Shown here in pieces: positions 49,974 through 62,723 of a stretch of DNA of 64,000 nucleotides (positions are counted from its first letter, which is position 1; the number at the start of each line of letters is the position of its first letter). Below the pieces are notes generated by a model that was not told where the DNA came from, did no database searches, and saw nothing but the letters and a program-made list of their open reading frames with translations. The DNA comes from Ensifer adhaerens (lineage in GTDB: Bacteria; Pseudomonadota; Alphaproteobacteria; Rhizobiales; Rhizobiaceae), in NCBI RefSeq assembly GCF_001270265.1, contig NZ_LGAP01000002.1, positions 742,001 through 806,000 on the forward strand. Reading direction: 5' to 3'. A program made the position numbers and the translations under genes.

Positions 49974-51464
49974 TCAGCGCTTCTGGCCGACGAAGCGCCC
50001 GACACCTTCCGGTGCCGGTAGCTTCGCATGCTCTTCGGCGATGGCGCTCAGTTTGCTCAGCACGTGTTTCGGCGCAGGCACGGACTTGCCGGCCTTGCTG
50101 TCGACATGCAGCATCATCTGCTCGGCGGTGGCGACCGCTTCCTTCGTCTCGGCATTGTAGATCGTCGAGAAGAGGTGCAGGCGCTTTTCGTCCGAGGACA
50201 GAAGCTGGCAGGTCGAATAGAGCGCATCGCCGAGCTTGGCCTCGCCGAGATTGCGGATATGGGTCTCGACCGTATAGTAGCTGTGGCCGTCGCGGACATA
50301 GTCTAGGTCGACGCCGATGAGGCGCAGCAGGCCGTCGGAGGTGTCGCCGAATACCTGGAGGTAGCGGTGCTCGGTCATGTGGCCGTTATAGTCGACCCAG
50401 GCGCCGCTGACCTTGGTGTCGAGAATGTGCAGCGGTTTGACTTCGCCGAGATCGGCTTCCGGCTTCTTGGCATTGGCCCAGAGTTTCGCCTCGAAGTCGG
50501 CAAGCAGCTTGCCGGCACCCCAGCCTTCGCCGCCATTGCCTGATTTCAGCGCGTGCATGATGCCGACGAGGTTTTCGTCGCGGATGCGCTCGAGCTCGCG
50601 GATCGAGCGGCCGGCGGCCTGCGCGTCCGACTGGGCGCCGATCTTTTCGACCAGCGCATCGTCGAGATCGACGACGTCGGTGAACTTCGTCCAGGGCCAT
50701 TTGAGGCAGGGGCCGAACTGGGCGAGGAAGTGGCGCATGCCGGCTTCGCCGCCGGCGATGCGGTAGGTCTCGAACAGGCCCATCTGCGCCCAGCGCATGC
50801 CGAAGGAGTAACGCATGACGTTGTCGAGCGTCTCGGTATCGCAGATGTCGTCCTGGATCAGCCAGAGCGCCTCGCGCCAGAGCGCTTCCAGCAGGCGGTC
50901 GCCGACGAAGGCCTCGATTTCCTTGGCGATGACGACGCCCTTCATGCCGATCTGCTCGACGCCCTGCATGGCGCGTTCGATCGTTTGCTTCGTCGTCTCC
51001 TTGCCGCCGACCAGTTCGACGAGTGGCAAGAGGTAGACCGGATTATAGGGATGCGCCACGAACATGCGCTCGGGATGGCGCATCTCGGCCTGCAGGTCGG
51101 ATGGCAGCAGGCCTGAGGTTGACGAGCCGATCAGGGCATCGGGCCTTGCGGCTGCGTCGATCTCAGTGATGACGCCGCGCTTCAGCTCCAGCCGTTCCGG
51201 CACGCTTTCCTGAATCCAATCAGCGTCCTTGACCGTTTCCTCGATGCTTTTGCAGAAGGTGAGTTTTCCCTTCGGCGGCAGCGGCGCCATGGTCAGCATG
51301 GCATAGGCGCGCTCGGCATTGGCCATGACTTCGCCGATGATGCGCTCGGCTTCCGGATGCGGATCGAAGATCTTCACATCGATGCCGGCGAGCGCGAAGC
51401 GTGCGACCCAGGCGCCGCCGATGACGCCGCCGCCGACACAGGCTGCATTCTTGATTTCGGTCAT
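49974..51464 (-). CDS. lcdH: L-carnitine 3-dehydrogenase fused to betainyl-CoA thioesterase
   Basis: A 496-residue two-domain enzyme. Residues about 1-315 are a 3-hydroxyacyl-CoA-dehydrogenase-type NAD domain (CVGGGVIGGAWVARFALAG, FVAHPYNPVYLLPLVELVGG) as in L-carnitine dehydrogenases, which oxidise carnitine to 3-dehydrocarnitine. Residues about 345-480 are a hot-dog thioesterase (VDYNGHMTEHRYLQVFGDTS, YYTVETHIRNLGEAKLGD) suited to releasing glycine betaine from betainyl-CoA. The fused form is known in rhizobia. The BKACE gene just upstream supplies the cleavage step between the two activities. GAGGTGAGGA precedes the ATG. Confidence 0.92.
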   Translation of the reverse strand: MTEIKNAACVGGGVIGGAWVARFALAGIDVKIFDPHPEAERIIGEVMANAERAYAMLTMAPLPPKGKLTFCKSIEETVKDADWIQESVPERLELKRGVITEIDAAARPDALIGSSTSGLLPSDLQAEMRHPERMFVAHPYNPVYLLPLVELVGGKETTKQTIERAMQGVEQIGMKGVVIAKEIEAFVGDRLLEALWREALWLIQDDICDTETLDNVMRYSFGMRWAQMGLFETYRIAGGEAGMRHFLAQFGPCLKWPWTKFTDVVDLDDALVEKIGAQSDAQAAGRSIRELERIRDENLVGIMHALKSGNGGEGWGAGKLLADFEAKLWANAKKPEADLGEVKPLHILDTKVSGAWVDYNGHMTEHRYLQVFGDTSDGLLRLIGVDLDYVRDGHSYYTVETHIRNLGEAKLGDALYSTCQLLSSDEKRLHLFSTIYNAETKEAVATAEQMMLHVDSKAGKSVPAPKHVLSKLSAIAEEHAKLPAPEGVGRFVGQKR

Positions 51465-51494
51465 TCCTCACCTCGACTTCTTGAATTGCAAACT

Positions 51495-51624
51495 GCCCCT
51501 CTCCTCGGGTTTAACCCGAGGACTAACCCTCTCCCCGCATGCGGGGAGAGGGGACTGAATGCCCCAGGCTTGCTGCCTTCTCCCCGTCTTGCGGGGAGAA
51601 GGCGCCGGCAGGCGGATGAGGGGC
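51495..51624. repeat. Rhizobial GCCCCTC-bounded double-hairpin element
   Basis: Starts GCCCCTCTCCTCGGGTTTAA with a CTCGGGTTTAACCCGAG hairpin, contains CCCTCTCCCCGCATGCGGGG and CCTTCTCCCCG..CGGGGAGAAGG hairpins, and ends ATGAGGGGC. A near-twin of the copy at 49760-49925, it sits between the BKACE and lcdH genes of one operon. Confidence 0.75.
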
Positions 51625-51666
51625 GCTTCCCTCACCGCGCGGATGAGGGGCCGCGGCGCGACGGGC

Positions 51667-52569
51667 TCAGCGCTTCGTCAGCTTCAGTTTCTCGCGGACC
51701 TCTTTGGGTCCGATGATCTTGGCGCCCATGCCTTCGATGACGCCGACTGCCTTTTCGACGAGCTGGCCGTTGGTCGCGAGCTGGCCCTTGCCGATATAGA
51801 GGTTGTCTTCGAGGCCGACGCGGACGTTGCCGCCGGCAAGGATGGCCGCTGCCGGGTAGGCGAGCGCGTTGCGGCCGATGGAGAAGGCCGAGAAGGTCCA
51901 GTTATCAGGCACGTTGTTGACCATGGCCATGAAGGTGTTGAGATCGTCCGGCGCGCCCCACGGAATGCCCATGCAGAGCTGGATCAGCACCGGATCCTCG
52001 ATCAGGCCTTCCTCGGCGAGCTGCTTGGCGAACCAGAGATGGCCGGTGTCGAAGGCCTCGATCTCGGGGCGCACGCCGAGCGCCGTCATCTGGCGGGCCA
52101 TTTCACGCAGCATCGACGGCGTGTTGGTCATGACATAGTCGCCGAGCGAGAAGTTCATCGTGCCGCAGTCGAGCGTGCAGATCTCCGGCAGACAGTCGGC
52201 GACATGGGCGACGCGCTCGGTGGCGCCCGCCATGTCGGTGCCTTTTTCATTGACCGGGAAGGGGCTTTCGACGTTGCCGAAAACGAGGTCCCCGCCCATG
52301 CCAGCCGTCAGATTGAGCACGACGTCGACATCGGCGGAGCGAATGCGGTCGGTGACTTCGCGGTAGAGGTCGAGCCTGCGGGCCGGCGCGCCGGTCTCCG
52401 GATCGCGGACGTGGCAGTGGGCCACGGCAGCACCCGCCTTGGCGGCTTCGATGGCGGCGTCGGCAATCTGCTTCGGCGTGATCGGGACGTGGCTGGACTT
52501 TGAAACGGTGTCGCCGGCGCCGGTAACGGCACAGGTGATGAATACCTCGCGGTTCATGCTGAGCGGCAT
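51667..52569 (-). CDS. BKACE-family beta-keto acid cleavage enzyme (3-dehydrocarnitine cleavage)
   Basis: A 300-residue TIM-barrel enzyme of the DUF849/BKACE family. The zinc ligands fit AAVAHCHVRDPETG (two histidines of HxH) and the C-terminal-side EAFDTGHLWF (Glu); VLNLTAGMGGDLVF is another landmark. Members condense a beta-keto acid with acetyl-CoA. With dehydrocarnitine this gives acetoacetate and betainyl-CoA, exactly the step needed beside lcdH. The start MPLSMNREVFITC at 52569 follows GGGAGACAGCA; the upstream 37-residue extension overlaps the divergent promoter and is rejected. Confidence 0.9.
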   Translation of the reverse strand: MPLSMNREVFITCAVTGAGDTVSKSSHVPITPKQIADAAIEAAKAGAAVAHCHVRDPETGAPARRLDLYREVTDRIRSADVDVVLNLTAGMGGDLVFGNVESPFPVNEKGTDMAGATERVAHVADCLPEICTLDCGTMNFSLGDYVMTNTPSMLREMARQMTALGVRPEIEAFDTGHLWFAKQLAEEGLIEDPVLIQLCMGIPWGAPDDLNTFMAMVNNVPDNWTFSAFSIGRNALAYPAAAILAGGNVRVGLEDNLYIGKGQLATNGQLVEKAVGVIEGMGAKIIGPKEVREKLKLTKR

Positions 52570-52625
52570 TGCTGTCTCCCTTTTTATTGAGGCCATTACG
52601 AGCCAAGAACGACGGCGCTGCTTTT

Positions 52626-52655
52626 CATAATCGGTTCTGTCCTTTACATTATCGG
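52626..52655. promoter_or_regulatory. Candidate CdhR-type operator: two CATNATCGG direct repeats
   Basis: CATAATCGG (52626-52634) and CATTATCGG (52647-52655) are direct repeats exactly 21 bp apart, two helical turns, in the 109-bp divergent region between the BKACE gene and the AraC-type regulator. Paired direct repeats at this spacing are typical for AraC-family binding. Confidence 0.55.
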
Positions 52656-52678
52656 CAACGAGGCGGAGAAGTTTGCAC

Positions 52679-53716
52679 ATGGATCAAAACGTTTCGCAGG
52701 TGCAGCACGCCGACATCCTGGTGTTGCCGGAGACCAATCTGATCCTCGTTGCCTCGGTGATCGAGCCGATGCGCGCCGCCAACCGCATCGCCGGCCGGCC
52801 GCTCTACAGCTGGACGCTCTACAGCCCGGACGGCGCGCCGATCGAAACCAAGAGCGGCATTCCCATCCCGGTCTCCGGCGCCTTCCGGCCGCAGCGCGAG
52901 ACGGCGCCGCTCTTCATCCTGTCGAGCTACAACTGGCAGAGGAGCGCGACCTCGCAGCTGAAGATGATGCTGTCGCAGACGGCCCGGCATCGCGAGCTGA
53001 TGGCGGGTATCGAGTCCGGCTCCTGGCTGCTTGCTGAAACGAGCCTGCTCGACAATTCCAAGGCAACGACCCACTGGGAGGATTTCGAGGACTTCACCAC
53101 CACCTATCCGCAGGTGACGATGGTGCGCGAGCGGTTCGTCATCGACGGCAAGCGCATCACCACCGGCGGTTCGCTGCCGACTCTCGACCTGATGCTGGAG
53201 CTGATCCGCCGGGCGCACGGCTATTCGCTGGCGCTCGAAGTATCGCGGCTGTTCATCTACGAGCAGGAGCGCACCCGCGGCGACCTCTTGCAGATGCCGG
53301 CGATCGGCAATATGCGCATCCTTGACCCCCGTGTGGGTGCTGCGGTCAAGCTGATGGAGGAAACCGTCGAGGCACCGCTGACGCTTGCGCGTCTCGCCCG
53401 CCGCATCGGCGTCAGCGTTCGGCACCTGCAGGACCTGTTTCGCGATACGATGGGGGTCGGGCCGCACGAACATTACCTGGCGCTGCGCCTCAACGCGGCG
53501 CGGCGCAAGGTGATCGAGACGCGCATGGAATTCGCCGACATCGCCGCGATCTCCGGCTTCAATTCGTCGTCGTCGTTTTCACGCAGCTACCGCGCGCACT
53601 ACCGCGAGAGCCCGAGCGAGACACGGCGGCGGCTGAAGCTCGGCCATGGTGCCGAGGAGCGCAGCCGCGGCTCGGAAAATGCCATCGGCAAGGCCGAGTC
53701 GACTGGACATACCTAA
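52679..53716 (+). CDS. GlxA family (DJ-1/AraC) regulator, probable carnitine-catabolism activator (CdhR-like)
   Basis: A 345-residue protein. The N-terminal DJ-1/PfpI-like ligand domain covers about residues 10-180 (ILVLPETNLILVASVIEPMR; the usual nucleophile region reads GIESGSWLLAETSLL, without cysteine). The C-terminal AraC HTH pair is at about residues 225-320 (LARLARRIGVSVRHLQDLFR, FADIAAISGFNSSSSFSRSY). It diverges from the BKACE/lcdH operon, as CdhR does from the carnitine genes in Pseudomonas. ATG 52679 follows GGAGAAG; a TTG two codons earlier is possible. Confidence 0.88.
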   Translation: MDQNVSQVQHADILVLPETNLILVASVIEPMRAANRIAGRPLYSWTLYSPDGAPIETKSGIPIPVSGAFRPQRETAPLFILSSYNWQRSATSQLKMMLSQTARHRELMAGIESGSWLLAETSLLDNSKATTHWEDFEDFTTTYPQVTMVRERFVIDGKRITTGGSLPTLDLMLELIRRAHGYSLALEVSRLFIYEQERTRGDLLQMPAIGNMRILDPRVGAAVKLMEETVEAPLTLARLARRIGVSVRHLQDLFRDTMGVGPHEHYLALRLNAARRKVIETRMEFADIAAISGFNSSSSFSRSYRAHYRESPSETRRRLKLGHGAEERSRGSENAIGKAESTGHT

Positions 53717-53849: not shown

Positions 53850-55094
53850 TCATCCCGGCAAGGTTGTCGTTGCCTGCGGGCCTGCTTTCATCATGCCGAT
53901 CATCAGGTCGCCGACCTCGCTGGAAAAGGCGCCGCGCGGCCAGACGAGCGTCAGCGACTGGCGGTAGAGCGGCCCCAGCCGGATCATGGCGGGTGGTCGC
54001 TGGACGCGTGACAGCGAGGTTTCCGGCAGCACCGAGAGGTAGCCGTGATGGCTGACCAGGTTGATGATGACGGGAATGGAATCGACCTCGACCAGCGTCA
54101 CGCGGCGACGTTCCGCCTCACTGAGCGTGTCTTCGAGAAAGCGGGCGACCTCACGGCGCAGGCCGCTGCGCGCGCTCGGCACGGCGATCGGGCAGGTGGC
54201 GAGCAGCCGTGGGAGATCGCCGCCCATTTCGGACAATGCTGGCGCCGGACCGGCCAGCACCAGCGGCGTTTCGGACACGAGACGGCCGTCGAAGTCAGGC
54301 GGAATACCGGCGACATCGAGCAGGGCGGCGTCGAAGCGCCGGCTCTTGAGACCGGCCAGAAGCTCATCGGCAGTGGTGCTGGAAATAAAGAGCGATTGTC
54401 GCGGACGGGAGCGGTGCCAGGTGGCCGTCAGCGCCGCCAGCATGCGGGCGATCTCGCTTTCCGGCCCAAGCGGCATGACGGCGCCGAGGCGCCAGGTGGT
54501 GACGTCGCGACGGAACCGGTCGGCCGAGGCGCGCGTCAGCCGCATCCAGATGTCGAGCAGGCGTTCGACTTCAGGGATGATGTCGAGGCCGGCCGGCGTG
54601 CAGGCGATGCCACCGTGGGAGCGCTCAAGCAATCGGCATTGGAGATGACGTTCGAGATCGGCGATCTGCCGCGTCAGTTGCGGCTGACCGAGGCCCAGCG
54701 TGCGGGCGGCGGCCCGGATGCTGCCGGCCCGGGCGATCCGCACGAAACGATCGAGCGCGACGAGGCCGACGGGTGGGACCGCGGCGAGGCCGACGGGTGG
54801 GACCGCGGCGAGGCCGACGGGCGGGATCGCGCTCGGTGGCTCCGCATAGGCGGTGGCGAGCAGCGCCCGGATCGTGGCGCTTGCTTCGGTCACATCGGCC
54901 TGTCGCGCGCGCGCCTCCAGGGTCAGGACCATGAGGCCGCCGTCGCGGCGGAAGAGGGGAATGGAAACGGCCTGCTCGAAGCGGCGAACGGCGGCGCTGA
55001 CGCTCGACGGCGCGCGCCCGCTTGAGGTGGCGGCGCGCCTGATGCCGCCTTCGCGCATGACGGCCTCGACGAGCAGGATCGTGGCGATATCCAT
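53850..55094 (-). CDS. LysR-type regulator with two N-terminal HTH domains
   Basis: A 414-residue protein, about 110 longer than normal LysR members. A first, weaker LysR-like HTH is at residues about 1-65 (LLVEAVMREGGIRRAATSSG, SSVSAAVRRFEQAVSIPLFR). A low-complexity linker made of three PPVGLxAV-type units follows, encoded by a 24-bp tandem repeat. A second, canonical HTH is at about 110-170 (LDRFVRIARAGSIRAAARTL, GQPQLTRQIADLERHL), then the effector domain to the end. It diverges from the HAL-like/hydantoinase gene run at 55304 and is the likely regulator of it. Confidence 0.85.
   Translation of the reverse strand: MDIATILLVEAVMREGGIRRAATSSGRAPSSVSAAVRRFEQAVSIPLFRRDGGLMVLTLEARARQADVTEASATIRALLATAYAEPPSAIPPVGLAAVPPVGLAAVPPVGLVALDRFVRIARAGSIRAAARTLGLGQPQLTRQIADLERHLQCRLLERSHGGIACTPAGLDIIPEVERLLDIWMRLTRASADRFRRDVTTWRLGAVMPLGPESEIARMLAALTATWHRSRPRQSLFISSTTADELLAGLKSRRFDAALLDVAGIPPDFDGRLVSETPLVLAGPAPALSEMGGDLPRLLATCPIAVPSARSGLRREVARFLEDTLSEAERRRVTLVEVDSIPVIINLVSHHGYLSVLPETSLSRVQRPPAMIRLGPLYRQSLTLVWPRGAFSSEVGDLMIGMMKAGPQATTTLPG
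54757..54828. repeat. 24-bp minisatellite inside the double-HTH LysR gene
   Basis: Three consecutive 24-bp units of the form GCGRCGAGGCCGACGGGTGG followed by GACC (54757-54780, 54781-54804, 54805-54828). Unit 2 differs from unit 1 at one base and unit 3 from unit 2 at two. Each unit adds eight residues to the interdomain linker without a frameshift. Confidence 0.9.
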
Positions 55095-55303
55095 TCCGCA
55101 AATTCTCCGCCGGCACCATCGCCGGAACCATGTTCGGCTTTAGGCATCGGCCGTTCCGGATTTGGGATATATCACGACAGTGAACAAAACGCATAGCATG
55201 CGGGCAGACGACCCTTCATCCGAAGAGGTGGGAGCGCATCAAGTCTTTGCATCCACGCATCGTTTCGGCATCGAGGCGCGTCGCGTGGTAAGGTATTTTC
55301 GGC

Positions 55304-56842
55304 ATGCTGCAACAGATCAAGTCTATCGTTCTCTGCGGGAAACCGCTCGACTTCGCGACGCTCGAGGAAATCGGCTCGGGCGCGGCGCGGCCGGTCGCGG
55401 ACGAGGGCGGCATGGAGCGGGTCGCCGCAGCGCACAAGGTGATCGCCGATCGCATCGCGCTCGGCCTGCCGGTCTACGGCTCCAACACCGGTGTCGGTTC
55501 GATGAAGGACCGGCTCTGGACCGCGGATGATCTGGCCGAGTTCAACACCTCGCTGGTGCGCGCCCATCATTTCGGCACCGGCGAATTCTTCACGGTGCCG
55601 ATCGTGCGCAAGGCGATCGCCATCCGCTGCAACACCGCGATGCGCGGGCACACCGGCTGCAGCCCCGAGCTGATCACTGCCTTCCTGGCGCTGGTCGAGC
55701 ACGACATCATTCCGGCGGTGCGCCGCCATGGCTCGATGGGCTGCGCCGATATCGGCCTGATGGGACAGATCGCGGCTGTCCTGACCGGGGTCGGCGAAGC
55801 CTATCATCGCGGCCGGCTGGTGCCGGCTGAAACGGCGCTCGCCGATGCCGGGCTGAAACCGTTGAAGATGCAGCCGCGCGACGCACTTGCCGCGCTCAGC
55901 GTCAATGCGATTGCCTATTCGGCGGCCGCCGATGTGCTGCGCGAGGCGGCGGCGGCAATCCGCGTGCTGCTCGTCACCGGCGTGATGTCGTCGCAGGCGC
56001 TTGGCGCGTCGGCCGACCCGTGGCGGGTGGCGGCGACGCTGTCGACGCGCGGCGAAGCGCTGGTCGGCTCTTGGCTCTACGGCCAGTCCGGCGTTGCCGA
56101 CTGGCCCTTGCCGACGGCGATCCACGACCCCTTGAGCCTGCGCATGACCGCCCAGGTGTTCGGCGCCGTTGTCGATACGTTGCTGGTGGCCGCCGGCCGG
56201 CTGGTCGAGGCGACCTATCTTTCGGATGATAATCCGGTGGTGCTCGGCGGCCAGGTGCATGCGTCGGGCGCGTCGCTGCCCTTGACGACGACGCTCTATG
56301 TCGAGACGGCGCAGATCGCCTTTTCCCATGTGGCGCGCAACGTGCTCAATCGCTGTATCCTTCTGTCGAACGGCGGACGTCGCAACCTGCCGGTCAATCT
56401 GGTAGCGCCGGGCGAAATCGCCACCGGCCTCGGCCCGCTGATGAAGCTTGCGGTCGAGCTTTACATGCGCGTGCAGTCGATGGCGGTGCCGCTTTCGGCC
56501 CAGTCGATCGTCGTTGCCGGCGGGCTGGAGGAAGAGGCGACCTTCCTGCCCTTGATCGTCGAGCGCATGGAAACGCAGGTGCGCGATCTCAGGCAACTGG
56601 CGGCGATCGAGGCGATCCTGTCGTCGCAGGCGATCGATCTCGTCGGCGACGCGCCGCAGGGGATCGTCAAGCTTGCGCATGAGCGTACCCGTTCGATCAG
56701 CCCGATGTATGTCAAGGACCGGCCGCTTTCGAAGGAGATCGAGGCGCTGCAGGACGCGTTTACCTGCCATGAGCTGCTGCGCACTTTCGTCACCATGGCG
56801 CCGATGCCGGAGTTCGACGACTTCTTTGCGCTGAGCAAGTGA
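55304..56842 (+). CDS. HAL/PAL-family lyase lacking the MIO triad, ergothionase-like
   Basis: A 512-residue aromatic-amino-acid-lyase-fold protein. It keeps the HAL landmarks: the Tyr loop VYGSNTGVG (Tyr58), DPLSLRMTAQVFG and DDNPVVLGGQVHASG. But where histidine ammonia-lyase has GSVGASGDL, whose Ala-Ser-Gly cyclises into the MIO group, this protein has GSMGCADIGL (Cys147-Ala148-Asp149). MIO cannot form, so deamination of histidine is unlikely. A betaine with a trimethylammonium leaving group needs no MIO, which fits ergothionase (ergothioneine to thiourocanate and trimethylamine). First gene of a run with hydantoinase, carbamoylase, DUF917 and urocanase-like genes. Confidence 0.8.
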   Translation: MLQQIKSIVLCGKPLDFATLEEIGSGAARPVADEGGMERVAAAHKVIADRIALGLPVYGSNTGVGSMKDRLWTADDLAEFNTSLVRAHHFGTGEFFTVPIVRKAIAIRCNTAMRGHTGCSPELITAFLALVEHDIIPAVRRHGSMGCADIGLMGQIAAVLTGVGEAYHRGRLVPAETALADAGLKPLKMQPRDALAALSVNAIAYSAAADVLREAAAAIRVLLVTGVMSSQALGASADPWRVAATLSTRGEALVGSWLYGQSGVADWPLPTAIHDPLSLRMTAQVFGAVVDTLLVAAGRLVEATYLSDDNPVVLGGQVHASGASLPLTTTLYVETAQIAFSHVARNVLNRCILLSNGGRRNLPVNLVAPGEIATGLGPLMKLAVELYMRVQSMAVPLSAQSIVVAGGLEEEATFLPLIVERMETQVRDLRQLAAIEAILSSQAIDLVGDAPQGIVKLAHERTRSISPMYVKDRPLSKEIEALQDAFTCHELLRTFVTMAPMPEFDDFFALSK

Positions 56843-56884
56843 TCCAAGACTGATCCAACAACACTGATCCGGGGGGAGAACACG

Positions 56885-58264
56885 ATGTCCGATTTCGATC
56901 TTGTCCTGAAAGGCACCGTTGTTCTCCCGCACAGGATCGTCGAGGGCGGGCATGTGGCCGTGCGCGACGGCAAGGTCGTGCATGTCGGCCAGGGGACAGC
57001 ACCATCCGCCCGTGAACGCCACGATCTCGGAAACGCAATGATCCTTCCCGGCGCCATTGACGCCCAGGTGCATTCGCTGTCGCAGAAGAACCAGGAGGAT
57101 TTCGTCTGGTCGACCCGCTCGGCCGCGGCCGGCGGCGTCACCACCATCGTCGACATGCCCTATGACGAGGGCAATCTCGTCTGCTCGGCCGAGGCAGTCG
57201 GACGCAAGGTCGCCCATGCGAGCCCGCAGGCGCGCGTCGACTTCGCGCTCTACGGCACGGTCGATCCCGAGGAGGGACCGGCCCGCATCCTCGAAATGGT
57301 CGAGGCCGGGGTCGCTGCCTTCAAGTTCTCCACGTTCGGCACCGACCCCAAGCGCTTTCCGCGCATTCCCGCAGCGTTGCTCGAGGATTGCTTTCGCGCG
57401 ATTGCGCCGACGGGGCTTAGCGCCGGGGTCCACAACGAGGACGACGAGGCGGTGCGCGGCGCGATTGAAAGGGTCAAGGCCGCCGGGATCACCGACTATC
57501 GTGCCCATGGCCTTTCCCGTCCGCCGCTGACGGAGCTTTTGGCGACCAATCAGATCTACGAGACGGGTGCGGCGACGGGATGCCCAGCGCATGTGGTGCA
57601 TTGCTCGCTCGGGCGCGGCTACGAGATCGCCGCCGCCTATCGCGCCCAGGGCCATGCGGCGACGATCGAGTGCTGCATCCACTACCTGACGCTCGACGAG
57701 GAGAGCGACGTTCGCCGGCTTGGCGGCAAGGCCAAGATCAATCCGCCGATCCGGCCGCGCGCCGAGGTGGAAAAGCTCTGGCGGCATGTGGCCGACGGCA
57801 CGGTAACGATGGTTTCCACCGATCACGTCAGCTGGTCGGAGGATCGCAAGACCAACCCTGATATGCTGGCCAATGCTTCTGGTGTGCCGGGCCTCGAAGT
57901 CATGGTGCCGCTGTTCGTCAAAGGCGCGCTCGAGCGCGGCGTGTCCCTGACACGGGCGGCCGAGCTGATGACGCTGAACCCGGCGCGGCATTTCCGGCTC
58001 GACCATCAAAAGGGCGCGCTGGAGGCCGGCAAGGACGCCGACATTATCGTCATGACGCCCGAGCCCTACATCTATGACGCGGCCGAAAGCGGCAACAATG
58101 TCGTGGGATGGTCGCCCTATAACGGCATCAGGCTGCCCTGGCGGGTGTCTGCCACCTATCTGCGCGGAGCGCTTGCCTTTGACGGGCGCGCTGTCGTGGC
58201 AAGGCCTGGCACCGGTGCCTTTGTTCGCCCACTTCAGACCTTGCCGTTGCAGGAGGCCCGATGA
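56885..58264 (+). CDS. Dihydropyrimidinase/hydantoinase-like cyclic amidohydrolase
   Basis: A 459-residue amidohydrolase-superfamily protein. The metal-binding positions visible are Asp59/Gln61/His63 in PGAIDAQVHSLS (normally Asp-x-His-x-His), Lys147 in AAFKFSTFG (the carbamylated lysine), His183 in GVHNEDDEA, His239 in AHVVHCSLG and Asp313 in STDHVSW. The first HxH histidine is thus replaced by glutamine. It would open a hydantoin ring, such as hydantoin-5-propionate, to an N-carbamoyl amino acid. The strong GGGGGGAG site precedes the ATG, and its stop overlaps the carbamoylase start by 4 bp. Confidence 0.88.
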   Translation: MSDFDLVLKGTVVLPHRIVEGGHVAVRDGKVVHVGQGTAPSARERHDLGNAMILPGAIDAQVHSLSQKNQEDFVWSTRSAAAGGVTTIVDMPYDEGNLVCSAEAVGRKVAHASPQARVDFALYGTVDPEEGPARILEMVEAGVAAFKFSTFGTDPKRFPRIPAALLEDCFRAIAPTGLSAGVHNEDDEAVRGAIERVKAAGITDYRAHGLSRPPLTELLATNQIYETGAATGCPAHVVHCSLGRGYEIAAAYRAQGHAATIECCIHYLTLDEESDVRRLGGKAKINPPIRPRAEVEKLWRHVADGTVTMVSTDHVSWSEDRKTNPDMLANASGVPGLEVMVPLFVKGALERGVSLTRAAELMTLNPARHFRLDHQKGALEAGKDADIIVMTPEPYIYDAAESGNNVVGWSPYNGIRLPWRVSATYLRGALAFDGRAVVARPGTGAFVRPLQTLPLQEAR

Positions 58265-59532
58265 GCACGAGCGTCAAGACCAATCTGCCCGTGGATGCGA
58301 GCCGGATTGCCGGCATCGTCAACGGGCTTGCAGGCATCACCGAGCCGGACCGGCCGTATACCAGGCGCGCCTTCACGCCGCTGTTCCTGGAAGGCCGGGC
58401 GTTCCTCGATCGCCGCTTCCGGGCGGCGGGGCTGGAAACCCGGATCGATGCGGCCGGCAATCTCATCGGCCGTCGCAAGGGGCGGAAATCGGCGCTGGGC
58501 ACGCTGATGCTGGGTTCGCATTCCGACACGGTGCCGGAGGGCGGCCGCTTCGACGGCATTGCCGGCGTCGCCGCCGCACTTGAGGTGGCGCGCGCGCTTT
58601 CCGACGCCGGCATCGAACTCGATCACGACCTGGAGATCGTCGACTTCCTGGCCGAGGAAGTGTCGATCTTCGGCGTGTCCTGCGTCGGCAGCCGCGGCAT
58701 GGCCGGCATCCTGCCGGATGGCTGGCTGAGCCGGGTGCAGGGCGATCTCAGCCTGCGGCAGGGTATCGTCGAGGTTGGCGGCGATCCCTCGCGGCTGTCA
58801 GTGCTCAAGCGCTCCGACATCAAGGCGTTTCTGGAATTACATATCGAGCAGGGGCCGGTGCTGGAGACCGGGCGGCTGGATATCGGCGTCGTCACGGCCA
58901 TCTCCGGCATCACCCGCATCGAGATCATCGTCGAAGGCCAGGCGGACCATGCCGGCACAACACCGATGGGCCATCGGCGCGATGCGCTGGTCGCCGCCTC
59001 GCGGCTGGTGCTGGCGATCGAGACGCTGGCGACGGAATTTTCCAAAGGCGAGGGGCATTTCACGGCAACGGTCGGCGAGTTCTCGATCGAACCGAACGCG
59101 GCCAATGTCGTGCCGTCGCGGGCGCGGTTGCTGATCGATGCCCGTGCCGAGCTGCGGCCGCAGATGGAGCGGTTCATCGTCGAGCTGGGTGCGCTTGCCG
59201 AGCGCGTCGCCGGCGAAGCGGGCGTGACGATCGCGCCTGCCAATGTGCTTTCCGACAACCATCCGACTCCGGGCGACGCGCTGTTGCTTTCGACGCTCGA
59301 AGAAAGCTGCGCCGAGATCGGCGCGAAACATCGGCGCATGGCCTCCGGCGCCGGCCACGACACCGCCTGGATGGGCCGTATCACCCGCTCGGCGATGATC
59401 TTCATCCCGTGCCTCGGCGGACGCTCGCATGCACCGGAAGAATGGGCGGAAAACGATGATATCGCGCTTGGCGCGGCCGTTCTCTTCGATGCGGTGAAGA
59501 GGCTCGATAAACGATTGCAGGAGAAGGTGTGA
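58261..59532 (+). CDS. M20-family Zn hydrolase, N-carbamoyl-L-amino-acid hydrolase / allantoate amidohydrolase type
   Basis: A 423-residue metallopeptidase-fold enzyme. The di-zinc site is visible in LGSHSDTVPEGGRFDGIAGV (His, Asp), DFLAEEVSIFGVSCVGSRG (Glu-Glu) and LELHIEQGPVLE (His), with QADHAGTTPMGHRRDA from the lid domain and SGAGHDTAWMG near the C-terminus. Family members hydrolyse N-carbamoyl amino acids to amino acid, CO2 and ammonia. ATGA coupling with the hydantoinase gene strongly implies sequential action, plausibly giving glutamate from N-carbamoylglutamate. One base separates its stop from the DUF917 start codon. Confidence 0.9.
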   Translation: MSTSVKTNLPVDASRIAGIVNGLAGITEPDRPYTRRAFTPLFLEGRAFLDRRFRAAGLETRIDAAGNLIGRRKGRKSALGTLMLGSHSDTVPEGGRFDGIAGVAAALEVARALSDAGIELDHDLEIVDFLAEEVSIFGVSCVGSRGMAGILPDGWLSRVQGDLSLRQGIVEVGGDPSRLSVLKRSDIKAFLELHIEQGPVLETGRLDIGVVTAISGITRIEIIVEGQADHAGTTPMGHRRDALVAASRLVLAIETLATEFSKGEGHFTATVGEFSIEPNAANVVPSRARLLIDARAELRPQMERFIVELGALAERVAGEAGVTIAPANVLSDNHPTPGDALLLSTLEESCAEIGAKHRRMASGAGHDTAWMGRITRSAMIFIPCLGGRSHAPEEWAENDDIALGAAVLFDAVKRLDKRLQEKV

Positions 59533-59533
59533 G

Positions 59534-60628
59534 ATGGGCCGGATACTGACGGAAAAGGATGTCGAGGCAGCGGTCAAGGGCGGCTCCGTCTATGCCGCCG
59601 GCGGCGGCGGCTGGGCCGATCACGGCCGTATGCTCGGCTATGCCGCGGTCTCGATCGGCAAGCCCGAGCTGGTGTCGGTCGATGAGCTTGATGCTAACGA
59701 CTGGGTGGCGACGGCTGCCGCCATCGGCGCACCGGCCTCGACCACACCGTGGGAGATGCGCGGCGTCGACTACGTCAAGGCGGTGCAGCTGTTGCAGGAG
59801 GCGCTCGGCGAGAAGCTCTCGGGCCTGATCATCGGCCAAAACGGCAAGTCCTCGACGCTCAATGGCTGGCTGCCATCGGCGATCCTCGGCACCAAGGTGG
59901 TCGATGCGGTCGGCGACATCCGGGCGCACCCGACCGGCGACATGGGCTCGATCGGCCTTGCCGGCTCGCCCGAGCAGATGATCCAGACCGCTGTCGGCGG
60001 CAATCGCGATGAAAACCGCTATATCGAGCTGGTGGTCCGCGGAGCGACCGCCAAGGTGTCGCCGATCCTGCGCACCGCCTCCGACATGTCCGGTGGCTTC
60101 ATCGCCTCGTGCCGCAATCCGGTGCGTGCATCCTATGTCAAGGCCAATGCGGCGCTCGGCGGCATCTCGCTGGCGCTCGCGCTCGGCGAGGCGATCATCG
60201 CTGCCGAAGCCAAGGGCGGCAGCGCCATCATCGATGCGATCGTCAAGACGACGAGCGGCGCTCTGTTGGCCGAAGGCGTGATCACCGACAAGTCGGTGGT
60301 CTACACCAAGGAGGCCTTCGATATCGGCACCGTGACGCTGGGGAAGGGCGCTGACTCCAAGGTATTGCACGTGATGAACGAATACATGGCGGTTGACTCT
60401 GCGGAAGGCCGGAGGCTTGCCACCTTCCCCGACGTCATCACCACGCTGTCGCCGGAGGGCGAACCTTTGAGCGTCGGCCAATTGCAGATGGGCATGAAGA
60501 TCTTCGTATTGCATGTGCCGAAAACGGTGATCCCGCTTGCCTCCAGCGTGCTCGACCCTACCGTTTACCCCTCGGTGGAGAAGGCGATGGGTATCGAGCT
60601 CGCCCGATACGCGTTGTCGGGGAAGTAA
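59534..60628 (+). CDS. DUF917 protein, candidate (S-methyl-)thiohydantoin desulfurase
   Basis: A 364-residue DUF917-family protein: it opens GRILTEKDVEAAVKGGSVYA then AGGGGWADHG, and contains DELDANDWVATAAAIGAPAS and ADMGSIGLAG-like DMGSIGLAGSPEQM. The gene starts one base after the carbamoylase stop, with GAAGGTGTGAG as ribosome-binding sequence. DUF917 proteins often accompany hydantoin-processing genes, and to my knowledge the family has been linked to desulfuration of S-methyl-thiohydantoins. In this cluster that would be the step between the urocanase-like hydratase and the hydantoinase. The reaction is inference from family and context. Confidence 0.82.
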   Translation: MGRILTEKDVEAAVKGGSVYAAGGGGWADHGRMLGYAAVSIGKPELVSVDELDANDWVATAAAIGAPASTTPWEMRGVDYVKAVQLLQEALGEKLSGLIIGQNGKSSTLNGWLPSAILGTKVVDAVGDIRAHPTGDMGSIGLAGSPEQMIQTAVGGNRDENRYIELVVRGATAKVSPILRTASDMSGGFIASCRNPVRASYVKANAALGGISLALALGEAIIAAEAKGGSAIIDAIVKTTSGALLAEGVITDKSVVYTKEAFDIGTVTLGKGADSKVLHVMNEYMAVDSAEGRRLATFPDVITTLSPEGEPLSVGQLQMGMKIFVLHVPKTVIPLASSVLDPTVYPSVEKAMGIELARYALSGK

Positions 60629-60644
60629 CGGCGGGGGGAGAGCC

Positions 60645-60974
60645 ATGGGGGGCGGTGCGGGACTTGAGGAACTGATCAAGGACGAGATCGCCGGCCGGTC
60701 GGGGCTGTCGGAAAAGGCGATGTTCGGCGGCTGGGCGTTTCTGCTCAACGGCAATCTGCTCTGCGGTGCGCGCGAAGGGTCGATGCTGGTGCGGCTTGGC
60801 AAGGGCAATGACGGCTGGGCGCTGGCACTGCCCAGCATCGAGCTGATGGTGATGAACGGGCGTGCGATGCATGGCTGGGTGCGGGCCGGGGCGGACGCCT
60901 ATGGCGACGATGCCTTGCGCAAGCGGCTCATCGATGCGGCGATCGCCTTCGTCGAAACGTTGCCGCCGAAGTGA
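60645..60974 (+). CDS. TfoX N-terminal domain protein
   Basis: A 109-residue protein matching the TfoX_N domain: GLEELIKDEIAGRSGLSEKA, then MFGGWAFLLNGNLLCGAREG and MLVRLG. GGGGGGAGAGCC precedes the ATG. Stand-alone TfoX_N proteins are small, of unknown function, and not evidence of competence regulation. It lies 16 bp after the DUF917 stop in the same run, so it is probably co-transcribed, although its role in the pathway is unclear. Confidence 0.85.
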   Translation: MGGGAGLEELIKDEIAGRSGLSEKAMFGGWAFLLNGNLLCGAREGSMLVRLGKGNDGWALALPSIELMVMNGRAMHGWVRAGADAYGDDALRKRLIDAAIAFVETLPPK

Positions 60975-60992
60975 ATGAGCGAAGTGGCTTTG

Positions 60993-61027
60993 CCCCTCTC
61001 CTCGAGTTTAACCCGAGGAGAGGGGCA
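60993..61027. repeat. Perfect hairpin inside the catabolic gene run
   Basis: GCCCCTCTCCTCG and CGAGGAGAGGGGC form a perfect 13-bp stem with a 9-nt loop. It is the left-end hairpin of the GCCCCTC element family (copies at 49760 and 51495) without the rest. It separates the TfoX_N gene from the urocanase-like gene and could cause partial termination or mRNA processing. Confidence 0.75.
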
Positions 61028-61064
61028 GTTAGCTACCGCCGATACAAGCACAAGGAACGAGACA

Positions 61065-62723
61065 ATGCCCAAGGCCAACCCCCGTCATCCTGACTTCCCC
61101 ATCCCCGGCGGACCGGAGCTGCGCGCCAAGGGCTGGCGGCAGGAAGCCTTGCTGCGGCTGTTGGAAAACGTGCTTTCCGTCGGCGAGGACCCGGACAATC
61201 TCATCGTCTATGCGGCGCTTGGCAAGGCGGCGCGCAACTGGCCGGCGCACCGCGCCATCGTCAAGGCGCTGATCGAGATGGACGAGGACCAGACGCTGAT
61301 CATCCAGTCGGGCAAGCCGGTCGGGCTCTTGAAGACCCATGCCAAGGCGCCGCTGGTGATCATGGCCAATTGCAACATCGTCGGCCAATGGGCGAAGGCC
61401 GAAGTCTTCTACGAGCTGCAGCGCAAGGGGCTGATCTGCTGGGGCGGGCTGACGGCCGGCGCCTGGCAATATATCGGCAGCCAGGGGGTGATCCAGGGCA
61501 CTTACGAGATCTTCATGCGCATTGCCGAGCGGCGGTTCGGCGGCGACCTCTCCGGCCGCTTCGTGCTGACCGCCGGGCTCGGCGGCATGGGCGGCGCGCA
61601 GCCGCTCGCCGGCCGGATGGCGGGGGCCGCGATCCTCTGCATTGACATCGATCCCGAACGGGCGAAGACGCGCAAGCAGGTCGGCTATCTCCAGGAGATC
61701 GCGCCCGATCTCGACGCGGCGCTTGCGATGATCGATGCGGCGGTCAAAGACAAGCGCGCGCTTTCCGTCGGTCTCGTCGGCAATGCGGCCGAGATCTATC
61801 CTGAGATCGCCCGGCGCGGCATCGTGCCCGATGTGGTGACCGACCAGACCTCGGCGCACGACCTCGTCTACGGCTATGTGCCGAAAGGCATGAGTATCGA
61901 CCAAGTAAAATCGCTGCGCGACGACGGCCAGGGACAGTTGATGGCGGCAAGCCGCGCGTCGATCGTCGAACATGTGACGGCAATGCTCGACTTCCAGAGA
62001 CAAGGCGCGGAAGTCTTCGACAACGGCAACCTCATTCGCACCCAGGCGCGTGAGGGCGGCGTGGCCAACGCCTTCGACATTCCGATCTTCACCGAGGCCT
62101 ATCTGCGCCCGCTCTTTGCCCGGGCCATCGGCCCCTTCCGCTGGATGGCGCTTTCCGGCGAGGAGAGCGATATCGCCCGTATCGACGATCTGCTGCTCGA
62201 CATGTTCCCGGACAACCGGATCGTCACCAACTGGATCAGGCTTGCGCGTGAGCACATCCCGTTCGAGGGCCTGCCGGCGCGCATTGCCTGGCTGGGGCAC
62301 GGTGAGCGGACGGCGCTCGCTCGGCGCGTCAACCAGCTGGTCGCTTCAGGCGAGCTCAGGGGACCGGTCGCCTTTTCGCGCGACCATCTCGATGCCGGCG
62401 CCATGGCGCATCCCAACATCATGACCGAGCGGATGAAGGACGGATCCGACGCCATCGCCGACTGGCCGCTGCTCGATGCCATGCTGCTCTGCTCGTCGAT
62501 GGCCGACCTCGTCGTCGTGCATTCGGGCGGCGGCGGCTATGCCGGCTACATGACGAGCTGCGGCGTCACCGTGGTTGCCGACGGCACGCCTGATGCCGAC
62601 GAACGGCTCGACCATGCGCTCACCAACGACACGTCCCTCGGCGTCATCCGTTATGCCGATGCCGGCTACGACGAGAGCTTCGAGGAGATCGCCGCCAAGG
62701 GCATTGGGCATGTGAAGGTGTGA
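61065..62723 (+). CDS. Urocanase-family hydratase, candidate (S-methyl-)thiourocanate hydratase
   Basis: A 552-residue protein, close to the usual urocanase length. It keeps the NAD-binding core TAGLGGMGGAQPLA (about 169-182), VVTDQTSAHDLVYGY, QSGKPVGLLKTHAKAPLV and PFRWMALSGE. Near the active site it differs: the PARICW segment that holds the conserved cysteine of Pseudomonas urocanase is PARIAW here (Ala408), and HHGGGVGMGFSQH is HSGGGGYAGYMTS. The changes imply a substrate related to but different from urocanate. In this cluster, thiourocanate or its S-methyl form fits best. ATG 61065 follows AAGGAACG. Confidence 0.88.
   Translation: MPKANPRHPDFPIPGGPELRAKGWRQEALLRLLENVLSVGEDPDNLIVYAALGKAARNWPAHRAIVKALIEMDEDQTLIIQSGKPVGLLKTHAKAPLVIMANCNIVGQWAKAEVFYELQRKGLICWGGLTAGAWQYIGSQGVIQGTYEIFMRIAERRFGGDLSGRFVLTAGLGGMGGAQPLAGRMAGAAILCIDIDPERAKTRKQVGYLQEIAPDLDAALAMIDAAVKDKRALSVGLVGNAAEIYPEIARRGIVPDVVTDQTSAHDLVYGYVPKGMSIDQVKSLRDDGQGQLMAASRASIVEHVTAMLDFQRQGAEVFDNGNLIRTQAREGGVANAFDIPIFTEAYLRPLFARAIGPFRWMALSGEESDIARIDDLLLDMFPDNRIVTNWIRLAREHIPFEGLPARIAWLGHGERTALARRVNQLVASGELRGPVAFSRDHLDAGAMAHPNIMTERMKDGSDAIADWPLLDAMLLCSSMADLVVVHSGGGGYAGYMTSCGVTVVADGTPDADERLDHALTNDTSLGVIRYADAGYDESFEEIAAKGIGHVKV

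Follow-up and report, generated by a model that had tools for sequence, protein, structure and literature searches.

A probable ergothioneine-catabolism operon of Ensifer adhaerens with a divergent lyase lineage, a LysR-type regulator with two helix-turn-helix domains and a TfoX_N-domain protein

Ergothioneine is a diet-derived antioxidant, and the bacterial scheme that leads from it to glutamate in five steps was reportedly established by Beliaeva and co-workers in 2021. The cluster described here lies in a stretch of 64,000 nucleotides of Ensifer adhaerens (hereafter the window; contig NZ_LGAP01000002.1, C12 in our numbering, positions 742001–806000) from a genome of 7.46 Mb in 99 contigs. 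It spans positions 53850–62723 of the window and consists of one gene for a regulator read leftwards and six genes read rightwards, with the start of ErtE overlapping the stop of ErtD by 4 bases (Table 1). With a probability of roughly 85%, judged from sequence comparison, the cluster is an operon for the use of environmental ergothioneine as a nitrogen and carbon source. Ergothioneine taken up from the surroundings would lose trimethylamine through the action of the lyase, without a 4-methylideneimidazole-5-one (MIO) cofactor, to give thiourocanate; the hydratase would add water to form thiohydantoin propionate; and the DUF917-family desulfurase would replace sulphur by oxygen, yielding hydantoin-5-propionate and sulphide. 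ErtD would then open the hydantoin ring to N-carbamyl-glutamate, from which ErtE would remove the carbamoyl group to leave glutamate. The regulator, a LysR-type protein with two helix-turn-helix (HTH) domains, probably senses an early compound of the pathway and turns the operon on; this signal, like the way ergothioneine enters the cell and any part played by the TfoX_N-domain protein, is inferred.

The family identity of the four enzymes after the lyase is strongly supported by homology, as scored with the curated equivalog cut-offs of NCBI (NCBIfam) and with Pfam scans. All seven genes were found where the first-pass annotation had placed them and in the families that it had named: its hydantoinase is ErtD, its N-carbamoyl-amino-acid hydrolase is the M20-type ErtE, its DUF917 protein belongs to the S-Me-THD family, its diverged urocanase is a three-domain urocanase homologue, its divergent regulator is of the LysR type, and the TfoX_N domain is present. 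The hut-like route for a 2-thio-imidazole betaine that it proposed is likewise borne out, as the hydratase, the desulfurase and ErtD pass the ergothioneine-type cut-offs and fail the sister models. The hydratase scores 737.6 bits with the S-methyl thiourocanate hydratase model NF058531 (cut-off 880), the desulfurase 282.2 bits with the S-methyl thiohydantoin desulfurase model NF058532 (cut-off 450), and ErtD 381 bits with the second ErtD type (cut-off 650). Since the hydratase and desulfurase pass the thio models and fail the S-methyl ones, only ergothioneine is retained of the two substrates originally proposed, and the S-methyl branch is unsupported. It is very unlikely that the cluster degrades S-methyl-ergothioneine: both S-route models do score clearly (282 and 738 bits), as sister families would, but their cut-offs are missed widely.

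Two of the enzymes also exceed broader models. The hydratase passes the general hutU model (690.5 bits, cut-off 375), and ErtE passes the Zn-hydrolase model NF009531 (689.3 bits, cut-off 486), with a higher score than for NF058540, as well as TIGR01879 (335.1 bits, cut-off 204); the ergothioneine-specific models are the more specific reading of both predicted proteins. Among solved structures, 7ned comes closest to the hydratase (E 9e-247) and ranks above other urocanases; it is titled 'Urocanate hydratase' in the PDB, and we take it to be the Paenibacillus thiourocanate hydratase. Identity is 67% to 7ned versus 50–53% to three urocanases. Where the three urocanases are invariant and 7ned differs, the hydratase has the 7ned residue at 58 columns, the urocanase residue at 21 and neither at 20, and in the same comparison against two urocanases the genome's own hutU gives 8, 99 and 10, respectively. 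As the first-pass annotation had noted, an imidazolonepropionase or formiminoglutamase model is the best match of none of the seven cluster proteins (0/7). Separate hutH, hutG and hutU genes lie on contig C45 and hutF on contig C89. A plain second hut operon was rejected, as the lyase has no MIO triad and the hydratase and desulfurase pass thio-specific models.

The lyase belongs to the Pfam family Lyase_aromatic (259 bits). Its predicted lack of MIO was confirmed in an alignment with Pseudomonas putida histidine ammonia-lyase (HAL), in which SMGCA-DIGL stands where the latter has SVGASGDLAP with the Ala-Ser-Gly triad. The protein fails the MIO-dependent HutH model TIGR01225 (197.6 bits, cut-off 539), and no ergothionase model matched it in the Pfam and NCBIfam scans. 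Its best sequence match in the PDB is the ergothionase of Treponema denticola, 6s7j (178 bits, with P. putida HAL at 108 bits). A fold search with its AlphaFold2 model (mean predicted local distance difference test score, pLDDT, 87; weak stretch at residues 399–408) placed three 6s7j chains on top (E 1e-27 to 3e-26), followed by Thermoplasma HAL (E 1e-25), which is a ranking and no proof because all matched structures have one common fold. At 21 alignment columns, seven window-type lyases have the residue of T. denticola ergothionase while three HAL-family controls differ, and these columns are candidate signature residues with a putative catalytic role. Among the nine checked further (K68, R108, D193, S199, N201, D308, S321, H342, and K381), all are also found in the lyase of an ergothioneine-type cluster of Burkholderia arboris, only K68, R108, S199, and S321 are retained in the lyase of a Deinococcus cluster, and S321 and K381 are missing from a Sinorhizobium meliloti lyase. 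The sequence and model comparisons make it fairly likely that the window lyase is an ergothionase, with ergothioneine as its presumed substrate.

The gene content and order of the cluster are kept in 15/15 relatives of the same genus. Three distant relatives (L052, L053, and L054) keep the gene order without TfoX_N, and a transporter lies inside the cluster of L052 (genome G041). The lyase homologue of L053 (G026:C189) is split into two pieces at different positions, so that its gene may be broken; apart from TfoX_N, the rest of this cluster is present. A search of genomes with the lyase gave 254 confirmed places, of which the best 80 were kept; some of these loci come from the same genomes as the genus relatives, and the two sets are not independent. 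All five enzyme genes are present at 76 of the 80 loci. The exceptions are L079 and L123, where the contig is short or breaks off and some enzyme genes are missing, and L111 and L124, which are locally without ErtD and ErtE. The conserved seven-gene order, together with this co-occurrence of the five enzymes, indicates that the cluster is more than chance. The regulator is divergent and adjoins the lyase at 57/80 loci, and a four-gene OsmF-type ATP-binding cassette (ABC) transporter follows the lyase at 8/80. Thiourocanate hydratase exceeds its cut-off in 40 of 297 genomes sampled from the family of the window. A lyase at E≤1e-80 was detected in 31 genomes, all of them among these 40 and 29 with the two genes within 15 kb, and the regulator (E≤1e-60) in 27, with 26 among the 40 and 25 within 15 kb. 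Fisher tests of linkage gave values of 6e-15 or less, which serve as descriptions and not as probabilities because related genomes are not independent. A draw from the phylum yielded 6/398, mostly near relatives.

Seven plasmid loci fetched around a hydratase (L151–L155, L160, and L161) reveal other arrangements. Four of them encode ErtD, ErtE, desulfurase and hydratase without a lyase homologue in the fetched stretch, namely those of Paracoccus aminophilus (L152), Thalassospira marina (L153), Neorhizobium (L154), and Rhizobium CC-CFT758 (L160); the regulator is present in all but L160, where the desulfurase match is split in two pieces. In a Rhizobium plasmid (L155), the lyase lies on the regulator's far side. 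At the B. arboris locus (L151), a T. denticola-type lyase is grouped with the hydratase and the desulfurase, and ErtD and ErtE are encoded on the opposite strand; the models passed by the window's ErtD, desulfurase and hydratase are passed by their counterparts there too. These lyase-less and variant loci thus show a core that is kept behind a variable front end.

Such loci also bear on an improbable alternative, in which the last four enzymes form a thiourocanate module that is fed by a lyase making the same thiourocanate from another 2-thio-imidazole amine, such as a thiohistidine with fewer methyl groups. The occurrence of the core without a lyase homologue in the fetched stretch at L152, L153, L154, and L160 would fit this view, as would the depth of the window-type lyase clade, which has no member among the solved structures in the PDB match search, but the signature residues common to the lyase and the ergothionases argue for ergothioneine. 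Moreover, without MIO the loss of a free amino group should be hard, and trimethylamine is a good leaving group.

In addition, at a locus on the Agrobacterium tumefaciens plasmid pAt15955 (L159), ErtD (782.8 bits, cut-off 600) has as neighbours a MIO-less lyase, a betaine-type ABC transporter and a molybdopterin S/N-oxide reductase. The fetched stretch contains no DUF917 match, and the locus possibly encodes a related route for oxidised ergothioneine. It is very unlikely that the window cluster itself degrades ergothioneine sulfonate, the oxidised form. A bacterial sulfonate route has been published (Yan and co-workers, 2022, as cited in PMC13405746), and L159 pairs an ErtD above the cut-off with a MIO-less lyase, although to read L159 as a sulfonate route is a guess. 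The lyase of that locus, however, belongs to another clade, and its gene lies with the reductase in a fetched stretch without a DUF917 match. The window has a desulfurase, needless for a sulfonate, and none of its genes encodes a reductase of this kind.

Several observations weigh against the assignment of the window cluster to ergothioneine. The lyase is 27% identical to T. denticola ergothionase and 26% to histidine ammonia-lyase, and at 151 discriminating columns it has the ergothionase residue at 34, the HAL residue at 32 and neither at 85; a control lyase from contig C89 of the same genome gives 23, 61 and 66. In an unrooted tree, the window-type lyases form their own clade (support 100/100), the lyases of T. 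denticola, Burkholderia and S. meliloti form a second one (94/92, below the tool's starred level), and the HALs, the C89-type and the Deinococcus lyases form a third (95/89). Because the tree is unrooted, a single ergothionase clade is neither proven nor excluded. The S. meliloti lyase groups with that of T. denticola yet has Ala at the K381 position, so grouping alone gives no function. The comparison with known enzymes that had been proposed as a check thus favours an ergothionase by the nearest solved relative, though not by identity or clade, and the substrate of the lyase stays presumptive because of the 27% identity and the separate clade. The Deinococcus locus (L161) has the full set, with a hydratase (767.2 bits, cut-off 930) and a desulfurase (394.9 bits, cut-off 440) below both sets of cut-offs. 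NF058538 is not specific to ergothioneine, being also passed by the Agrobacterium gene in a cluster of another kind (L159). Nine of the 40 family genomes with the hydratase have no lyase anywhere at E≤1e-80, a threshold that would miss a more distant lyase. One of the 27 genomes with the regulator, G106, is without thiourocanate hydratase over the cut-off, and no transporter is found among the operon genes.

Taken more widely, alphaproteobacterial ergothioneine catabolism might be a swappable module, a view that we hold tentatively and at somewhat less than even odds. Its conserved core would be the double-HTH LysR protein and the four enzymes from thiourocanate to glutamate. To this would be joined a MIO-less ergothionase lineage of separate evolutionary origin and, in many lineages, a TfoX_N 'double-wing' protein dedicated to the pathway, whose function might be that of a DNA-binding co-regulator. 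Carriers without an adjacent lyase may live on the thiourocanate of their neighbours.

The regulator combines HTH_1 with a LysR substrate domain (LysR_substrate, 56.7 bits), as expected for the LysR type, and is unusual in its second HTH_1. The two Pfam HTH_1 stretches lie at about residues 6–59 and 114–169, and the N-terminal residues 1–81 and 6–59 match LysR models of NCBIfam as well. Both HTH regions are covered at 57 of the 58 lyase-search loci with a regulator match, and two HTH stretches were detected in 4/4 distant regulators scanned (L052 and the lyase-less loci L152, L153, and L154). A literature search on tandem-HTH LysR proteins, including the accessible part of PMC5882156, turned up no regulator of this layout. 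A tandem repeat of 24 bp in 3.2 copies, translated as Pro-Pro-Val-Gly-Leu repeats, encodes the linker that joins the two HTH stretches. The region between the regulator and the lyase is likely the operator/promoter. Of 49 intergenic regions measured, 18 with similar lengths were aligned with that of the window. The alignment revealed a conserved block near 55131–55201 (TTTGGGATAT, CGCATA-CAT) but no convincing palindrome. Regulator homologues also include that of G106 (C2:61060-62214; 41% identity, E 5e-67) and two copies in G144.

The TfoX_N protein passes the Pfam gathering score (38.7 bits, cut-off 30.1). Its gene is under purifying selection, with a ratio of nonsynonymous to synonymous substitution rates (dN/dS) of 0.12–0.23 against eight relatives, similar to that of the regulator (0.11–0.22) and higher than those of the five enzymes (0.03–0.11). 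It lies between the desulfurase and hydratase genes in 51 of the 78 lyase-search loci having both, and is optional, being absent in the other 27. In the family draw, its subfamily at E≤1e-37, a line chosen after the list was viewed, occurs in 15/40 genomes with the hydratase versus 0/257 others, all 15 within 15 kb; the looser line of E≤1e-12 brought in 54 genomes, of which the remaining 39 (E 2e-20 or worse) have more distantly related TfoX_N proteins and are without the hydratase. The structural model (pLDDT 89) gave no fold match at E≤0.001. Weak matches were YjbR 2fki (E 3e-3), TfoX-like 2od0 (E 1e-2), DUF419 2a1v (E 2e-2), and the T4 MotA DNA-binding domain (E 0.5). With low confidence, the protein is speculated to be a DNA-binding co-regulator. 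A thiol role was rejected, as some members of the genus have Leu in place of the near-invariant cysteine. A literature search on TfoX and ergothioneine returned only a paper on Vibrio engineering.

The gene boundaries of the first-pass annotation hold overall, apart from two start sites moved downstream. The TfoX_N gene probably starts at 60645 instead of the open reading frame start at 60537, because the latter overlaps the DUF917 gene and conservation starts past the DUF917 stop. The hydratase probably starts at the ATG at 61065 instead of 60975, because NF058530 begins at residue 48 of the long reading frame and a dispersed repeat of 35 nt lies at 60999–61033. This 35-nt sequence has an inner hairpin and occurs in two copies in opposite orientation (91% complementary), one of them between the TfoX_N and hydratase genes, and looks like a dispersed intergenic element.

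As to the source of the substrate, EgtB exceeds its cut-off in 0/16 genomes of the genus, with partial matches in 16/16, and EgtD was not searched; on the sequence evidence, the genome probably makes no ergothioneine of its own by the EgtB route. A self-made substrate was rejected on this EgtB result, and a transporter inside the operon was rejected because none is among its genes. An OsmF-type substrate-binding gene on contig C45 (81188–82093) is 77% identical to the one inside the G041 cluster, is present in 16/16 genus genomes and passes the glycine-betaine OsmF model (503.8 bits, cut-off 400); in ergothioneine uptake its role is that of a candidate only.

A carnitine-type set adjoins the cluster at 49974–53716. 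Its first gene, a fusion, presumably has the layout of a carnitine dehydrogenase, and BKACE is the name that we assume for the second. The BKACE and GbdR-like neighbours are found at 52/80 lyase-search loci.

MIO-less lyases and DUF917 genes also occur in other settings. The C89 lyase (G000:C89, L147:7568-13911) has GSVGY---LTH at the triad, is 63% identical to the L159 lyase and is accompanied by a ProX-like ABC transporter, HutF (702 bits, cut-off 413) and a Ves/HutD-like gene; its substrate might be another histidine betaine such as hercynine. The S. meliloti lyase, on pSymA (L156:5938-7578), is annotated hutH, lacks the MIO triad (SVGQA-DMTL) and has no hydratase or desulfurase annotated adjacent to it. 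On contig C30 (G000:C30, L148:5228-9001), two adjacent DUF917-family genes, both far below the thiohydantoin desulfurase cut-offs, have as neighbours a peptide-type ABC transporter and a gene of the caprolactamase/hydantoinase-like kind.

Table 1. Features of the cluster and its surroundings (positions in the window)
Feature	Position	Strand	Basis
3-hydroxyacyl-CoA dehydrogenase/thioesterase fusion	49974–51464		
35-nt sequence, first copy	51488–51522		
BKACE-like protein	51667–52680		
GbdR-like regulator	52673–53716		216 bits, under cut-off 480
LysR-type regulator, two N-terminal HTH domains and LysR substrate domain	53850–55094	-	Pfam HTH_1 x2, LysR_substrate
24-bp tandem repeat in the regulator gene	54756–54831		
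Divergent intergenic region, likely operator/promoter	55095–55303	.	alignment of intergenic regions
MIO-less HAL-family lyase, proposed ergothionase	55304–56842	+	Lyase_aromatic, PDB match, fold match, signature residues
ErtD, hydantoin-5-propionate amidohydrolase	56885–58264	+	NF058538 793.9 bits, cut-off 600
ErtE, N-carbamyl-L-glutamate amidohydrolase	58261–59532	+	NF058540 597.5 bits, cut-off 520
Thiohydantoin desulfurase (DUF917 / S-Me-THD family)	59534–60628	+	NF058529 601.5 bits, cut-off 440
TfoX_N-domain protein, 109 amino acids, accessory	60645–60974	+	Pfam TfoX_N, locus position, dN/dS
35-nt sequence, second copy	60999–61033		
Thiourocanate hydratase	61065–62723	+	NF058530 1056.2 bits, cut-off 930; best PDB match 7ned

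Bacteria that destroy ergothioneine could affect its availability in soil. Literature searches on thiourocanate hydratase with ergothioneine found nothing, those on thiohydantoin desulfurase with rhizobia found nothing on topic by title, and those on thiohydantoin with ergothioneine gave nothing on this route among the matches listed. According to a 2026 report, a database search with the Burkholderia ergothionase found the enzyme in few genera, and divergent homologues could be missed (PMC13405746). The window-type lyase clade is a divergent group of this kind, and the regulator and the TfoX_N protein are testable leads on the control of the pathway.

Compared with the canonical hut system, the lyase and hydratase of the window are homologous to HutH and HutU, but the lyase is without MIO, and HutI, HutF and HutG are not the best match of any cluster protein. 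The S-methyl-ergothioneine route has a homologous hydratase and desulfurase, whose cut-offs the window proteins do not reach. With the T. denticola ergothionase 6s7j, the window lyase has in common the fold, the loss of the MIO triad and the signature residues, but it differs in its 27% identity, its own clade and the motif GCAD of that clade in place of GEGD. The closest system is the five-step bacterial ergothioneine catabolism, with which the window has in common four enzymes that pass the NCBI models, a MIO-less HAL-family lyase at step one and the adjacency of the genes. In contrast to that system, the window lyase stands in a clade of its own (27% identity to T. denticola, 28% to the B. 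arboris cluster lyase), and it is accompanied by a TfoX_N gene and by a LysR regulator with two HTH domains. The pathway is thus already known, and it is the lyase clade without a solved member and the two conserved companions, LysR and TfoX_N, that appear to differ from the studied examples.

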